From: an uncultured Clostridia bacterium
Lineage (GTDB): Bacteria > Bacillota > Clostridia > Christensenellales > UBA1242
DNA length: 64,000 nt
Direction of reading: 5' to 3'
Assembly: GCA_944349375.1 (NCBI GenBank)
Contig: CALVMV010000003.1
Span: forward strand, 93,926 to 157,925
Positions 2,636 through 23,497 of the stretch are shown piece after piece; the first letter of the stretch is position 1; every line of letters starts with the position of its first letter. The notes under the pieces are model-generated. The model did no database searches, was not told the origin of the DNA, and saw only the letters and a program-made list of their open reading frames with translations. A program made the translations under genes and the position numbers.

Positions 2636-3697
2636 TTAGATAAATTTTCTATTCTTTTTAATTGGTTTATAAACTATTGCGTAAAAACCAGGAAGAATAA
2701 ACTGTGCGCTTACGAAATTAACTATAACAGATATTAATAAAGCTAAAGCTGTGTATCTCATAACTGCAGTACTGAATGCAATTAAAATTATTGATAGAAC
2801 AAACAAAATGGCATACAAATATAAGTTTAATTTAATGTTCGATTTGCTTACTTCATTGGCAACGCAATTAGCTTTAGATTGATCTACTGCCCCACTTGAA
2901 GTCATCTCTTTAGATTTGCTATAGAAAACAAGTAGATTGATAACACTCATAAACATAGTAAATCCGACTACAGCTAAAGTTGAAAGATTGAAAGGAATTC
3001 TTGTTATAGCAACTAGAGCTAGCATTAATAAAATATCATGAACTATAGTTATAAAAGCTGTAACAAAAGCTGTTTTTTCATATCTGCATGCAAGGTATAT
3101 TATTGTAAATACAATAGCGACAACAATAGCTATTATACAACTATAAACTATTGTCAAATTTTGATTATAGTTTTCTAAGATAGAGGGTTCACTAACAGCT
3201 TCTTCTAATAAAACTGCATCTTCATTCTGATAACCTAGGGCTTGCATAATAGCTGTTTTAATTTCAGAATTTAAATTTGTTTGTTCTTCTTTTGTTAAAG
3301 ATGAATCATTATAATAAATAATTTCTAAAGCTTTTGCATCTTTTATATTTTCATTTTTAAGGTCAATAGTTGTTTTTTCTACTGATTCAATTTGTGTTCC
3401 GTTTTTTGATAAAGCATTAGAAATTAAATTTATAACTTTGTTATAATCTTCGCTATCATCAATATCATAACTGTTTATTGTGTCTTGAATATAATTTTCA
3501 GAATTAGTATAAACTTTGATTGAAGATAAACTAGCAAAGTCATTTCCTAGATTAAAACCAAGAAAAGAAAAAATGAATATGCCAGCAATGATTAAAATGA
3601 GAGTGGATAGAATAAAGTATTTAAAACTTTTATAAAAATCAAACTTGCTTTGAGAAATGACATTATCAAATCTTTGATTAAATGATGTTTTTTTCAT
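2636..3697 (-). CDS. secF: SecF-like protein translocase accessory subunit, divergent
   Basis: SecD and SecF form a membrane complex that uses the proton motive force to pull exported proteins through SecYEG. This 353-residue protein has one N-terminal membrane segment, an extracytoplasmic P4-like domain (about residues 60-170) and five further membrane segments, as expected for SecF. RYEKTA and the HD pair at residues 220-221 match conserved SecF positions. The usual GIDFTGG motif is reduced to LGNDFAS. In the segment that normally reads SINDTVVVF, the relay Asp aligns with Ile253. It overlaps the secD stop by one base (TAATG), implying translational coupling. A short hairpin at 2582-2598 could terminate the operon. 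Confidence 0.85.
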   Translation of the reverse strand: MKKTSFNQRFDNVISQSKFDFYKSFKYFILSTLILIIAGIFIFSFLGFNLGNDFASLSSIKVYTNSENYIQDTINSYDIDDSEDYNKVINLISNALSKNGTQIESVEKTTIDLKNENIKDAKALEIIYYNDSSLTKEEQTNLNSEIKTAIMQALGYQNEDAVLLEEAVSEPSILENYNQNLTIVYSCIIAIVVAIVFTIIYLACRYEKTAFVTAFITIVHDILLMLALVAITRIPFNLSTLAVVGFTMFMSVINLLVFYSKSKEMTSSGAVDQSKANCVANEVSKSNIKLNLYLYAILFVLSIILIAFSTAVMRYTALALLISVIVNFVSAQFILPGFYAIVYKPIKKNRKFI

Positions 3698-5094
3698 TAT
3701 AATTGCCCTCCTTCTTCAGAGGTAAGAGCTGAAGCTTTGTCCTCGGGTATAATTTCAACTTCTTCTTTGATTTCTTTTACATTTGCTTCTCTATATAATT
3801 TTAATTTTTTAGGTTTTGTGCTGTTAAGAGGAAGATATGTGTTAACAAAAAATCTAAATAAAACATAAAGAGTGAAAAATGATACTAAAGAAGCAATAAA
3901 AATTACACCACCAAAGTAAGAAATAGAATATTTGCCTATTAACAACAAAATTATAGAAGCAACAAGAGTAATGATGTGCAAGTCAAAAATTCTCCAAAAT
4001 GATTTTTTGAAACCATTTTTGCATGAAACATGAATTCTATTTCCTATTGCGTATTCTTTTCCTACCCTTTCACATATTATGATTTGGCATACGGTAAATA
4101 AAATTAAAGAAAGGAACATTGCCAAAGCACCACCCAAGTCTAGTCTTATAAAAGGTAACGCTTGCATAAAGAAAAATTGTAAAACTATGAAGAAAATCAA
4201 GGCAAAGTTTGCAAGCAAACCTAAATCTCCATATTTAACCCACATAAAAATCATAATTGCAATTGCAAAAACTAAGAAGGCAATAAGAGTGTAAAGCCAT
4301 GCGTTATCACCTAGTTTTGCAGAAATAGTATTCATAGATTCTTGTTCTAATGTTACATCAAAAGTTCCAACAAAAATATTGCTTGCTGTTTGGTATGCGT
4401 TTGAATAGTCTGAGGTTGTATTTGATGCAGAAGACGAAGAAATAAACATTGTTTTGTCTAATTTGCTTACAGATATTTCGCCATAAGCATTAGAAGAATT
4501 TATTTCATCAAGGTAAACATAAACAGTATCAGAATCAATATAATCTGCTTGTTTTTTCAAATTGTCAAGTTTAGATTTTCCCAAATTTGTTAAGGTAACA
4601 TTAATTCCATATACACTTGAATTTTGGTTGTAAGATACTTCAGCAAAAGAAATATCGCTACTATCCAAATAACTTTCTGGTGTCAAAGAATCAGAAGCTT
4701 CTTCAATAGTGAAAAATATTTTTTGACCAGACTCTAAAAGTCCAAGCATAGTTGAAGAATATTCATCTTCTAAAATTTGAATTTCTATTTTTGTGTCACC
4801 TTGTTTGTTTATTTCGTATTCAGAAAACCCGTGATAAGACAAAAATTTATCAATTTTAGAAAGAGTATTGTCCACTGCTTGACTTGTAGAAGAAATAGTA
4901 GAATTTGTTTTTTCAGCCGAATAGACAATAGAAACTCCACTTGAATAATCTAATCCAAGTGGAATTGAATTAACAAAACCATTATAATTTGTAGTAGTAT
5001 AAGGAATTGTAAAAAAGCATACTGTAAGAAGAATGCCAATAAGAGCTACAAAAGCTAATACAACGAATCTTGTTATTGAGCGTTTTTTAACCAT
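3697..5094 (-). CDS. secD: SecD-like protein translocase accessory subunit, divergent
   Basis: SecD partner of the adjacent secF. It has an N-terminal membrane segment, the motif GLDYSSG at residues 47-53 (family GLDLxGG), a periplasmic-type P1 region to about residue 260, five membrane segments, and an acidic cytoplasmic tail ending SEEGGQL. The family motif AVDANVLIFERI is here FTVCQIIICERV (residues 333-344), so the proton-relay Asp aligns with Val335 and the following Asn with Gln337. Length (465 aa) is near the usual size for a separate SecD. Order secD-secF is standard. Family membership is safe; proton-driven activity is doubtful. Confidence 0.87.
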   Translation of the reverse strand: MVKKRSITRFVVLAFVALIGILLTVCFFTIPYTTTNYNGFVNSIPLGLDYSSGVSIVYSAEKTNSTISSTSQAVDNTLSKIDKFLSYHGFSEYEINKQGDTKIEIQILEDEYSSTMLGLLESGQKIFFTIEEASDSLTPESYLDSSDISFAEVSYNQNSSVYGINVTLTNLGKSKLDNLKKQADYIDSDTVYVYLDEINSSNAYGEISVSKLDKTMFISSSSASNTTSDYSNAYQTASNIFVGTFDVTLEQESMNTISAKLGDNAWLYTLIAFLVFAIAIMIFMWVKYGDLGLLANFALIFFIVLQFFFMQALPFIRLDLGGALAMFLSLILFTVCQIIICERVGKEYAIGNRIHVSCKNGFKKSFWRIFDLHIITLVASIILLLIGKYSISYFGGVIFIASLVSFFTLYVLFRFFVNTYLPLNSTKPKKLKLYREANVKEIKEEVEIIPEDKASALTSEEGGQL

Positions 5095-19561: not shown

Positions 19562-19590
19562 ATTATACATAATTACTTTTCAAAAGACAA
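19562..19590 (-). promoter_or_regulatory. Promoter abutting the GTG start of rarA
   Basis: Minus-strand TTGTCT (19585-19590), 17-nt spacer, TATAAT (19562-19567). Six bases (TGAGGC) separate it from GTG. It overlaps the 3' end of the upstream gene. Confidence 0.6.
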
Positions 19591-20799
19591 GTATATTTCG
19601 TTGTTTTTTTTGAAAATTTCATTTGTGAGCAACATAAAGTTAAAATATCTTGTGTTATCAGCAAACATATATCTTGAACCATTGTGAACAATAAAAATGC
19701 GTTTCCACCTTTGATTTCGGTATAAAGAGGCTTCTTTAAGCTCTTTAAAATTCTCATTAATTTGTTCACCATTTTCAAATTTTTTTATTATAGAATTTCT
19801 AATTTTTAGCCATTCTTTTTCACTTTCTTCATCATAACCATTTTTTTGCCACTTTTCCCATATATTTCTTGGCAAAGAGCGATTAAAAAACTCGTCAAAT
19901 TTATAATTTGTAGTTTTTACCTGTAAATCAAAAATTTGAAACATTTTTTGTTGGCTAATTTCAAAAAAATCGTTCATTTCTAAACTGTTTTTTATACAAT
20001 ATTTCTTATCTCCATAATTAAAATATAGCTTTCTTTGCTCTTTTGGTAACAAATTAATTTCGGTTTCAAAATTTATACAAGCAAACGATGAAAAATCAAG
20101 CCCATCTACATTTGCAAAATTAAATTTAGCATTTTTACAATAATAGTTAAAATAAGCTTTGTCTTGATTAAATAGGTTTTTGATTTCTACACATTCATTA
20201 CTCTTTTTAAAAAAATAATACCCTCTTGGCAATGGCAAATTTAATTCAATTTTAACCTTGCTACAATGCTTTTCCAAATTAATTAAATTGATTATAAAAT
20301 TTCTACCATTACATAAAAATTCTTTAATTTCAAAAGAGTTCCCATTTTCAGAATACTTTTTATAATTATAATAAGGGAGATATGAAAACTCAACTTCCTT
20401 ATTATTTATTGCGAGAAATTGTTTGTTGTATTTTATTTTGTATGATGAATGAGCCGAATAATTTATGTTTAAGGCATCTAAAGAATAGTATAAACTTTCA
20501 CTTATTTCATCTGGCAAAAACAAAAAAGTTTGTGGTAATTTGTTAATTTTTGTTTTTTTAATTAAGGGCTTTTGTGTCAAAACTAAATTAAAGCCTACTC
20601 TTTTTTTTGCTTTTTTAAAAGCATGAAAAAAAATTTTATCAAGTGGCTTCTTGTAAATAAAAACAGGCAAAGAAGTGTCTATACCAACGACTTTTAACAA
20701 TTCTAAATCAATTTGCTCGTTTTCTAAATTAGGAGCATGATATTTAATTTTGTTATAAATTAACTGTTCAATTTTTGCAATATATTCTTTCTTATTCAT
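19573..20799 (-). CDS. Hypothetical protein, 408 aa, downstream of rnpB
   Basis: No family recognised. The protein is soluble, rich in Asn, Lys, Tyr and Phe, and appears mixed alpha/beta. Notable blocks are PVFIYKKPLDKIFFHAFKKA, FLFLPDEISESLYYSLDALN, LNLPLPRGYYFFKKSN, and a C-terminal block RNQRWKRIFIVHNGSRYMFA. The last could be a beta-hairpin core. The ATG at 20799 is chosen because the upstream in-frame codon at 20853 lies in the rnpB terminator. No Shine-Dalgarno sequence is present and a weak promoter (TTGTTT-N18-AATAAT) ends 6 nt before ATG. It precedes rarA by 17 nt. Confidence 0.65.
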   Translation of the reverse strand: MNKKEYIAKIEQLIYNKIKYHAPNLENEQIDLELLKVVGIDTSLPVFIYKKPLDKIFFHAFKKAKKRVGFNLVLTQKPLIKKTKINKLPQTFLFLPDEISESLYYSLDALNINYSAHSSYKIKYNKQFLAINNKEVEFSYLPYYNYKKYSENGNSFEIKEFLCNGRNFIINLINLEKHCSKVKIELNLPLPRGYYFFKKSNECVEIKNLFNQDKAYFNYYCKNAKFNFANVDGLDFSSFACINFETEINLLPKEQRKLYFNYGDKKYCIKNSLEMNDFFEISQQKMFQIFDLQVKTTNYKFDEFFNRSLPRNIWEKWQKNGYDEESEKEWLKIRNSIIKKFENGEQINENFKELKEASLYRNQRWKRIFIVHNGSRYMFADNTRYFNFMLLTNEIFKKNNEIYLSFEK

Positions 20800-20805
20800 G
20801 CTTTT

Positions 20806-20835
20806 ATTATTGACATTATTTTGCCCTATAAACAA
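20806..20835 (-). promoter_or_regulatory. Weak promoter abutting the start of the 408-aa gene
   Basis: Minus-strand TTGTTT (20830-20835), 18-nt spacer, AATAAT (20806-20811), then AAAAGC and ATG. It overlaps the T tract of the rnpB terminator. Confidence 0.35.
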
Positions 20836-20853
20836 AAAAAGTGGCAAAGCCAC
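20834..20853 (-). terminator. Terminator of rnpB
   Basis: Minus-strand GTGGC and GCCAC pair around TTT, followed by TTTTTTTG, directly after the RNase P RNA. Confidence 0.9.
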
Positions 20854-20856
20854 AAA

Positions 20857-21180
20857 TCAGTTATGCTATAAGCCGAGTTCTGTATTTGACAATCATCTAT
20901 CTAGTTTTATAGTTGCCTATAAAATCAAGCGGCTAAAAGGACACGAGAGAACAAGCGTATTTGTCCTTCTCCTTGCATCAGGTGGGGTTTACAGAGCAAA
21001 AATTGTCTCCAATTTTTCGGTAGTCTCTTACACTACCTTTCCATCCTTACCGAGAAGCTCGGCGGTTTATTTCTGTTGCACTTTCCTTAGGGTCGCCCCC
21101 ACAGGCCGTTAGCCTGCACCTCTGTTCTCTAGATGCTCGGACTTTCCTCATTTTGCAATGCGATTGTCTGCATAACTGAC
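20857..21180 (-). ncRNA. rnpB: RNase P RNA, class A
   Basis: Catalytic RNA that matures tRNA 5' ends. On the minus strand the conserved P4 5' segment GAGGAAAGTCCGAGC (near 21130-21145) and 3' segment ACAGAACTCGGCTTAT (near 20869-20885) are present, with AGGAAAGTGCAACAGAAA and ACCGCC between, a class A pattern. The ends GTCAGTTATGC and GCATAACTGA form helix P1. A consensus promoter and a terminator flank it. Confidence 0.97.
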
Positions 21181-21187
21181 AAAAACG

Positions 21188-21216
21188 ATTATAAATCTTT
21201 AATGTATTTTTGTCAA
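21188..21216 (-). promoter_or_regulatory. Consensus promoter of rnpB
   Basis: Minus-strand TTGACA (21211-21216), exactly 17 nt, TATAAT (21188-21193); a perfect sigma-A promoter facing rnpB. Confidence 0.92.
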
Positions 21217-21230
21217 TAAATAAAATTGTA

Positions 21231-21259
21231 TTGACAAAAAAATAATGTTTGGTTATAAT
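21231..21259 (+). promoter_or_regulatory. Consensus promoter of the divergent two-gene cassette
   Basis: TTGACA (21231-21236), 17-nt spacer, TATAAT (21254-21259); perfect boxes. The ATG at 21266 lies 7 bases downstream of the -10 box, where transcription should begin. The two divergent -35 boxes are only 14 bp apart. Confidence 0.85.
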
Positions 21260-21265
21260 TTAGAT

Positions 21266-21649
21266 ATGATGAATAGAAAAAGTAAGCTTTTAATAGATAC
21301 AGAAGAGGCTAAAAAATTATTTTTAGCCACCTCTTTTTCATTGCAAGAGTTAAAAAAAGTAGATAAAGACCTAAAAACTAAAATAGAACAAGGATATGTT
21401 GCTGGAGGATATGATATTCTAAATGTAATTGACAAACTAAGAAGCTTTTCAACAACATTTGATATTAGTTTTTACAAAGAAATGTTTATAAAATATCTTG
21501 AAAAAGTGGTTTTAGAATTTATTATAAAACTACTTGAAGACAAAAAAGATTTAATAAAAAAATACTTTACCGAAGAAGAAATAAAACAAATTAATAATAT
21601 TTTACTTGTAAAAAAAGAGAAAGAAAGGATTGACTTTGATCATGTATAA
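21266..21649 (+). CDS. Hypothetical protein, 127 aa, probable leaderless mRNA
   Basis: No family recognised. The product is Lys/Leu/Ile-rich, without Cys or Trp, and looks all-helical (DTEEAKKLFLATSFSLQELK; FYKEMFIKYLEKVVLEFIIK; KKYFTEEEIKQINNILL). The ATG codons at 21266 and 21269 are adjacent. An upstream in-frame ATG at 21245 lies inside the promoter and is excluded. No Shine-Dalgarno sequence is possible because transcription should begin at the ATG. The stop overlaps the start region of the next gene, so the two form a cassette divergent from rnpB. Confidence 0.65.
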   Translation: MMNRKSKLLIDTEEAKKLFLATSFSLQELKKVDKDLKTKIEQGYVAGGYDILNVIDKLRSFSTTFDISFYKEMFIKYLEKVVLEFIIKLLEDKKDLIKKYFTEEEIKQINNILLVKKEKERIDFDHV

Positions 21650-22100
21650 TAACATTCCTTATAAAAATATTGATGGGAAAAAATTTGTTGATTTTGAAAA
21701 TTTAAATTATTCCCCCACTAAAGAAAATGCAGAAACATTTATTTCTATAATGATCATTCATCCATACCAATTAACGGAAAAAAATGTTAAAGACTTCTTT
21801 AAATTGATAAAACAAGTTTATAAATTATATCCAGATTTTCAAATAAGATTTTTTGATTGGTTAAAAGTAAAAAAAATGTTAGATACTTATGGGTTTAAAT
21901 ATGATAGAAAATTTGTAAATGATAAAATAGTTTCAAATTTAAATTATGTTTATCAAGCCTTGAAGAATGGAAAGAAAAATCTTTTGACAAGTGAAGAAGA
22001 AATTTATTTAGAGTTTTTGGAATCTTTTAAAGAAAATGCAGACGGTAATGCAGAAAAAATATTAAAAAAGTTAGATTATTTTTGCGAAAAAGAAAAATAA
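21642..22100 (+). CDS. Hypothetical protein, 152 aa, second gene of cassette
   Basis: No family recognised. The soluble protein begins MYNNIPYKNIDGKKFVDFEN and contains a helical middle (FFKLIKQVYKLYPDFQIRFF) and a helical C terminus (EEEIYLEFLESFKENADGNA). It has a single Cys near the end. AAAGGA ends 12 nt before the ATG at 21642; a TTG at 21630 is another possible start but is too close to that site. It overlaps the previous gene by 8 nt, so the two are translationally coupled, and it ends at a strong terminator. Confidence 0.65.
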   Translation: MYNNIPYKNIDGKKFVDFENLNYSPTKENAETFISIMIIHPYQLTEKNVKDFFKLIKQVYKLYPDFQIRFFDWLKVKKMLDTYGFKYDRKFVNDKIVSNLNYVYQALKNGKKNLLTSEEEIYLEFLESFKENADGNAEKILKKLDYFCEKEK

Positions 22101-22125
22101 AAGCACTATAAATTAGTGCTTTTTT
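22098..22125. terminator. Bidirectional terminator between the cassette and the DisA-like gene
   Basis: AAAAGCACT and AGTGCTTTTTT pair around ATAAATT; A and T runs on both sides serve both converging transcripts. Confidence 0.85.
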
Positions 22126-22126
22126 A

Positions 22127-23497
22127 TTACCCTACTGTAAACAATGTTTTTATTTTACCATTCTTTTTATCACTATATAGTGCTGTTAAGTTGCCATCTT
22201 GTGAAATTTTTATTGCTACTCCATATTTTGCTAATGTTTGTGTTGCAGCTAGTCTTCCACCGCCTTCGCTTCCCGCTTCAATTTTGATAATCGCACCAAT
22301 AGCAATTATATTTCCATCACTATCTATGACAGTTGCTCCATCCATGCTTACAAGCTCTTGTCTAAGTTTTCTGCTTAACTCCTGAAAAGGTCTGTTGGCA
22401 ATAATCTTTCTTAAAGCTTGAGCCTTATAACATTTTTCTTGTTGTAAAAACACATTGTAAGGCACTTTATAAGTTTTTTCAATAGAAGTAAGATTTTGAT
22501 AATTGTATAATTTATTTGCTTCTTCAAGTTCTTGTTCTTTTTTAATTTCAAAATATTTTTCCATTATTATATCGTGTGCATCAATATGAGTAAGTGCTTG
22601 TTCTACTGTATCCTTATTTAAATAAACTATGCAACCACCAGTATATGCAAAAGAAGTATCTAGTGCAGTAAAATAGATTGATCTTCTTATGTCTTTTAAA
22701 GAATAAGTACCTCTGCTAAGCAATAATTGTATAACTTCATCATGAGAAAAGACATTCCAAACACCATTTCTTTTTGCAAACAGAAGTGTTCTATTTTTAA
22801 AAATTAAAAAATCACCATTTAAGGTCAATACTAACCCTATTCTTTTTTCGTTGCAATATTTTGCGATTGCTTCATACTTATAAGGAGAAACAGTTGTAGA
22901 TATCCTTTTACTACTCATTTGAATATATCCATTTAGTATGCCATTTTTATCAAATTCAACAGCAGATAGTTCTCCATCAGTTAAAAGTAAAAAGAAATCT
23001 TTAGGCATAACATCAGAATAATAAATATTATTATCTTGAGAAGTTAAATCTAAGGATTGATTTATAATTGAACATATTGATATTCTTTTCCCTTCATAAG
23101 TTCTTGTTGCTAACTTTTCTAATTCGCTTAAAATCCCTAGCATAACTGAAACAGTTTCTTCTTGTTCACATAAACTTCTACATATAGATTTCTCTATGGC
23201 GTGTGATTGTAAAATTGAAACATAGTTTAAATCTTGTAAATTTAGCTGAGAAATTGTATTAAGTTCAGATAATATAGATTTGATTAATTCTATCTCAAAA
23301 GGTTGAAAAGCTTGTCCTCTTTTTAAAACAAGGCGATATTCATCTTGTTTTGAAGGCTTTAAAAGTAATGAGTTTTTTTTGCCAAGTGCAACTTCGCTAT
23401 CTCTAGCAGAAGATTCTTCTTCTCCTTCTAGATATGAGCCAGTAAATAAGGGCAATACTAATTTTTGAAGTAAGTTGTAAAATTCTGTTTTTTCCAT
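22127..23497 (-). CDS. DisA_N/diadenylate-cyclase-like sensor-domain protein
   Basis: A 456-residue soluble protein. The C-terminal 75 residues resemble the nucleotide-binding half of the DisA_N (diadenylate cyclase) fold: DGATVIDSDGNIIAIGAI from residue 386 contains the family DGA motif, and the distal segment has GGGRLAA (412-418) and VAIKISQDGNLTAL. Active cyclases carry RHR where this has GGR, so it more likely binds than makes c-di-AMP or a related nucleotide. This recalls DAC-related sensor families described by comparative genomics. Residues 1-370 hold mixed alpha/beta segments, including FFLLLTDGELSAVEFDKNG. GGAGGGTGAT precedes ATG. It is next to sigK. Confidence 0.7.
   Translation of the reverse strand: MEKTEFYNLLQKLVLPLFTGSYLEGEEESSARDSEVALGKKNSLLLKPSKQDEYRLVLKRGQAFQPFEIELIKSILSELNTISQLNLQDLNYVSILQSHAIEKSICRSLCEQEETVSVMLGILSELEKLATRTYEGKRISICSIINQSLDLTSQDNNIYYSDVMPKDFFLLLTDGELSAVEFDKNGILNGYIQMSSKRISTTVSPYKYEAIAKYCNEKRIGLVLTLNGDFLIFKNRTLLFAKRNGVWNVFSHDEVIQLLLSRGTYSLKDIRRSIYFTALDTSFAYTGGCIVYLNKDTVEQALTHIDAHDIIMEKYFEIKKEQELEEANKLYNYQNLTSIEKTYKVPYNVFLQQEKCYKAQALRKIIANRPFQELSRKLRQELVSMDGATVIDSDGNIIAIGAIIKIEAGSEGGGRLAATQTLAKYGVAIKISQDGNLTALYSDKKNGKIKTLFTVG

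Follow-up and report, generated by a model that had tools for sequence, protein, structure and literature searches.

A two-gene cassette divergent from rnpB in a Christensenellales genus has a predicted leaderless start at a conserved distance from its promoter

The window analysed here, a stretch of 64,000 nt from an uncultured Clostridia bacterium (assembly of 0.94 Mb in 15 contigs, 80% complete), carries the class A RNase P RNA gene rnpB on the minus strand (20853..21179), called by covariance model with 265.9 bits over model positions 1-367 of RF00010 against an Rfam cut-off of 100. Next to it, two perfect matches to the housekeeping sigma promoter TTGACA-N17-TATAAT stand back to back, one on each strand. 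The rnpB promoter has its -10 box at 21188..21193 (ATTATA as written, TATAAT on the minus strand) and its -35 box at 21211..21216 (TGTCAA as written, TTGACA on the minus strand), and given the position of the RF00010 match, the 5′ end of rnpB falls where this promoter should start transcription. Beyond 14 A/T-rich bp (21217..21230) lies the plus-strand promoter, with its -35 box TTGACA at 21231..21236 and its -10 box TATAAT at 21254..21259, followed by a 6-nt spacer, TTAGAT (21260..21265), and the ATG of a 127-aa open reading frame (gene 1, 21266..21649, predicted to be leaderless). A second plus-strand frame of 152 aa (gene 2, 21642..22100) has its ATG inside gene 1, the two frames sharing 8 nt. 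Our reading of the sequence agrees, coordinates included, with a preliminary description of the locus, which had reported the two perfect promoters with 14 bp between their -35 boxes, RNase P RNA behind one of them, and a 127-aa/152-aa cassette behind the other with its first ATG at the predicted transcription start. As a chance control, TTGACA-N16..18-TATAAT was counted 21 times in the 942-kb genome and never when read backwards, and TTGACA-N16..18-TANNNT-N5..7-ATG 14 times against once backwards.

Both frames sit inside slightly longer ones (134 and 156 aa) whose start codons lie further upstream. Structure models predict an all-helical protein for gene 1 (pLDDT 88) and a mostly helical one with two short strands for gene 2 (pLDDT 89). 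For neither protein was there a match over the curated cut-offs in Pfam or NCBIfam or a strong match in PHROGs; the best E-values against PDB sequence profiles were only 0.037 and 0.22, and a fold search of both models against the PDB gave no match with E ≤ 0.001. Matches in the protein database were near copies only, one for gene 2 and 23 for gene 1, the window's own included. As a first guess, the two small helical proteins might form a joint complex. Immediately after gene 2, a perfect inverted repeat (AAAGCACTA/TAGTGCTTT) with a T run was found by eye (22100..22128), which is likely to be a terminator between gene 2 and a convergent gene on the minus strand (22127-23497). The 456-aa product of this convergent gene has no Pfam or NCBIfam match over cut-off, the best Pfam hint being a GdpP-like GGDEF domain (E 0.067), and its C-terminal part, judged by eye, may resemble diadenylate cyclase motifs. 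A 426-aa protein encoded downstream of rnpB (19573-20853, minus strand) likewise has no match in Pfam or NCBIfam.

RF00010 matched in 101 of the 112 genomes of the genus, and the rnpB region was fetched for 97 of these; the other four hold rnpB fragments, from which only the G017 contig, carrying a gene 1 homologue, was taken. Gene 1 occurs in ten of the 112 genomes, beside rnpB in nine (G000, G028, G076, G077, G078, G083, G085, G101 and G106) and in the tenth, G017, on a contig that breaks inside rnpB. These ten were found with E < 1e-32 in a profile search of all 112 genomes, which otherwise returned six weak fragments in five genomes (E 6e-4 to 0.009), two of them containing stops; these were judged to be chance, as were a weak match in G056 (E 2e-4) and a match for gene 2 in G067 (E 5e-4) that is not on the rnpB contig. 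Identity to the window copy is 14-48% for gene 1 and 24-32% for gene 2. Homologues of gene 2 are present in six of the ten species and absent after gene 1 in G028, G077, G078 and G085. Where both genes occur, the start of gene 2 ranges from 8 nt ahead of the gene 1 end to 25 nt past it, which is consistent with translational coupling.

All ten orthologues of gene 1 are preceded by a promoter of the form TTGAC[AT]-N17-TAnnnT (TTGACA in nine, TTGACT in one). From the -10 box to the start codon, the distance is exactly 6 nt in nine of the ten, G077 being the exception, and the nine, which share descent and so are not nine independent tests, all start with ATG. The letters of the spacer vary (TTAGAT, TATGAT, AAAGCC, AAAAGC, CTAAGC, ATGGGT, AAAGAC, CAAGAT and GGGTAT), and its last base, directly before the ATG, is a pyrimidine in each. 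An alignment of orthologous loci, which the preliminary description had named as a check, thus finds the spacing kept, and the protein conservation upstream of 21266 that it had named as contrary evidence is not borne out. In eight of the nine, an in-frame stop precedes the ATG by 12 nt (seven species, where it lies at the -10 box itself) or 18 nt (one species), which excludes an earlier start of gene 1 in these eight orthologues; G083 has an extra ATG 6 nt before the start, but downstream of the in-frame stop. No Shine-Dalgarno (SD)-like word stands before the ATG in the nine apart from AGGA in G017 and G106, which belongs to the -10 box and therefore lies outside the predicted message, and the window has no AGGAG-type word at 5-14 nt upstream of gene 1. 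The exception, G077, has ATA at the 6-nt position and an ATG six codons later behind AAGGAAGG, with such a word at the 5-14 nt required for an SD-led start. In this species, an SD-led start seems to have taken the place of the leaderless one.

In a tree of a PolC-type exonuclease from 30 genomes (see below), the ten cassette species group together (support 100/99); the row of G093, misread owing to its GTG start, sits on a long branch. The cassette is absent from 88 of the 97 fetched rnpB loci. The convergent 456-aa gene is present in 77 of them and ends at most 400 nt from rnpB in 58, so the cassette was likely inserted between the two. A single origin within one clade of the genus is likely for the unit, which would have formed between the rnpB promoter and the convergent gene. 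Other genes, with SD-like words, lie divergent from rnpB in G087 (L088), G094 (L079), G125 (L133) and G135 (L118), and one gene at this site is common to G087 and G094. The site seems to take in clade-specific genes repeatedly.

The same arrangement recurs across the genus. TTGACA-N17-TAnnnT-N6-ATG is found at 812 sites in the 112 genomes, or about 7 per genome, whereas the seven control distances of 8-14 nt together give 1520 sites, 217 each, making 6 nt 3.7 times as common. This excess emerged with the relaxed -10 box and whole-genome counts and not from the perfect consensus alone; among the 150 perfect-consensus matches listed, a distance of 4 nt (12) is commoner than 6 nt (10). Frames of at least 80 codons follow 27 of 29 sampled 6-nt sites, against a background of 15% for ATGs in the same loci, and the frames at the other two have just 17 codons and 1 codon. 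Six sampled frames were scanned and all exceeded their family cut-offs (RsfS, three; RuvC, TlyA-family and TatD-family, one each). Four of the six such sites in the window genome lead long frames, namely the cassette, the PolC-type exonuclease, a flippase-like gene and a 282-aa gene with partial similarity to GlmU. RNA polymerase favours a pyrimidine-purine step at -1/+1. At the first 87 listed 6-nt sites, the ATG is preceded by T or C in 81 cases and by G in none, compared with T or C at 35 of the first 75 listed sites at 8-14 nt (Fisher p = 4e-11), and this pyrimidine would make the A of the ATG the first transcribed base. SD sites are used in the genus as well, as 52 of 84 listed ATGs located 15-30 nt past perfect promoters have an SD-like word. 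Among 116 genomes of the order outside the genus, 445 sites were counted at 6 nt against 224 per control distance (ratio 2.0), with a patchy distribution by family (ratios of 0 to about 9) and frames of at least 80 codons at 20 of 30 sampled sites.

Two short frames were seen at this distance. One, in G000 (L147, C1:104878-104915, minus strand, and the following 130 nt), has 10 codons (MSNTKFLALL), three of them for Leu, and is located before a leuS-like frame (by eye) and followed by a terminator-like hairpin and a complementary segment; it has no Rfam match and looks like a putative leaderless leader peptide of an attenuator. The other, a conserved 17-codon frame (MKVEVSTSHHSII(E/A)LNW) in G000 (L152) and G028 (L253), begins 6 nt past the -10 box before an infC-like frame (by eye) and, with no Rfam match, is perhaps kept as an RNA structure and not as a peptide.

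The PolC-type exonuclease provides a second gene in which the distance can be followed. In G000 (L292, C3:82500-87500, positions 3339-4883, minus strand), it encodes 514 aa comprising an OB-like part and an RNase_T exonuclease domain (Pfam, 122.5 bits against a cut-off of 24), followed by rimP and nusA. Its best NCBIfam matches are PolC models, with scores far below the full-length cut-offs because the polymerase part is absent. An initial label as the replicative polymerase polC, based on the first 501 residues, was rejected, since the frame is 508-525 aa long and has no polymerase part; the gene may be what is left of polC, retained as an exonuclease in its own right. All 30 sampled genomes have its start after TTGACA-N17-TAnnnT, at 6 nt in 27 and 7 nt in three, with ATG in 29 and GTG in one, and the frame has the length given above in 29 of the 30, stopping at codon 91 in G085. 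Of 29 scored genomes, 23 have the -35 box within the end of the gene upstream, whose protein ends in DILHF plus two residues; the doubtful G087, with a 118-codon frame, is not counted among these 23, and G017, with its shorter locus, is not among the 29. In the remaining six, the promoter lies after the upstream gene or elsewhere, and the distance is again 6-7 nt. The Asp codon within DILHF is GAC in 23 of 23 cases, against 322 of 926 Asp codons in the exonuclease frames, which indicates that promoter letters are kept at a silent position; this comparison carries no probability, since related species are not independent.

Database entries bear on where gene 1 begins. The mechanical list of open reading frames and 21 of the 23 listed database proteins, the window's own included, give a protein of 134 aa starting at an upstream ATG (21245), which would require a message beginning further upstream, and among 16 of these proteins that were read, all 14 with 134 aa carry the 7-residue extension, with a substitution in two. 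This start is highly improbable in our view, since 21245 falls inside the promoter spacer and, in eight of the nine 6-nt orthologues, in-frame stops located 12-18 nt ahead of the ATG leave no room for it; gene callers would prefer the longer frame, and near-identical strains would be expected to retain the letters around 21245 as promoter. RNA polymerase is also loose in its choice of start, and gene 1 begins with a doubled start codon (ATGATG), so that transcription could wobble by a base or two around the ATG and give a leader of 1-4 nt. With a pyrimidine before the ATG in all nine orthologues and at 81 of 87 genus sites pointing at that A, such a very short leader is unlikely.

A/T-rich flanks would suit SD-less initiation by 30S subunits, and the 6-nt distance could then be a by-product of descent or of weak constraint, with gene 1 translated from a longer message originating elsewhere. 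That explanation appears very unlikely, because the spacer keeps its length of 6 nt while its letters differ and the two -35 boxes are separated by anything from 13 to 47 nt, and because the exonuclease keeps its distance whether the -35 box is inside the upstream gene (23 of 29) or not. The same variable gap bears on the proposal that rnpB is co-regulated with the cassette as a bidirectional pair, in which RNA polymerases compete over the 14 bp. With about 85 bp between the two predicted starts, polymerase footprints could touch, but a -35 to -35 distance of 13-47 nt in the ten orthologues speaks against a fixed bidirectional device, and 88 of the 97 rnpB loci lack the cassette altogether. 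We regard co-regulation as rather unlikely, and the setting of rnpB versus the cassette in the preliminary description, if meant as a fixed device, did not hold up.

We consider it highly probable that gene 1 is read leaderless and gene 2 by coupling to it, in a unit that arose once and uses a start mode found elsewhere in the genus. Under this leaderless reading, the consensus housekeeping promoter would make the A of the gene 1 ATG the likely first base of the message, ribosomes would start at this ATG without a Shine-Dalgarno site, and gene 2 would likely be translated by coupling through its 8-nt overlap with the end of gene 1; the start mode would be one that the genus also employs for other genes. 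More broadly, and with somewhat better than even confidence, we propose that the genus keeps a leaderless set marked by TTGACA-N17-TAnnnT-N5-Y-ATG, with the PolC-type exonuclease as a member and RuvC, RsfS, TlyA and TatD as further members in some species; clade-specific genes, the cassette among them, would be born into this mode beside strong promoters and could switch to SD-led initiation by loss of the start codon, as in G077. The distance fixed within a clade despite changing letters and neighbours makes a sequence-only case for leaderless initiation in Bacillota, and G077 would represent a natural switch to SD-led initiation within one species. If this is true, most database proteins listed for gene 1 carry a wrong start, and leaderless initiation would serve part of the housekeeping genes in this lineage.

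Leaderless genes have been reported in Bacillota before. A limited literature collection yielded no report connecting leaderless messages with polC and Clostridia, with rnpB and a divergent promoter, or with C. difficile start sites. Of the 209 Firmicutes genomes in Zheng 2011 (PMC3160421), 56 are reported to have leaderless genes (mean 4.2%), with a concentration in Lactobacillales and Mycoplasma. The view in the preliminary description that strong leaderless messages are unusual in Bacillota is only partly right: such messages are a minority, but 56 of those genomes have some and the arrangement recurs at about 7 sites per genome in this genus. The cassette resembles the TA-led leaderless genes of that study in having a -10-like signal about 10 bp before the start and no SD, and differs in belonging to a small-genome, Clostridia-related genus and in that the distance was followed across orthologues and not scored per genome; a -10-like bias before SD-less genes is also discussed in PMC5397173. 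According to two further sources, about 2-3% of mapped transcripts are leaderless in three solventogenic clostridia (PMC9045289), and 8% in Streptococcus agalactiae, where AUG is the start codon of every one of them and its A the first base of 90% (PMC4448216); those cases are measured 5′ ends, whereas the cassette is a prediction from sequence alone. Leaderless translation has also been reported to persist in the presence of kasugamycin (PMC4929434). Within the genus itself, SD-led short-leader genes, to which gene 1 of G077 belongs, share the same promoter boxes and differ from the cassette in having a leader with an AGGAG-type word before the ATG. As leaderless genes are a reported minority in Firmicutes, the cassette does not represent a new kind of start; it is a newly found, predicted case of a mode already known in Bacillota, with unusually good comparative support.
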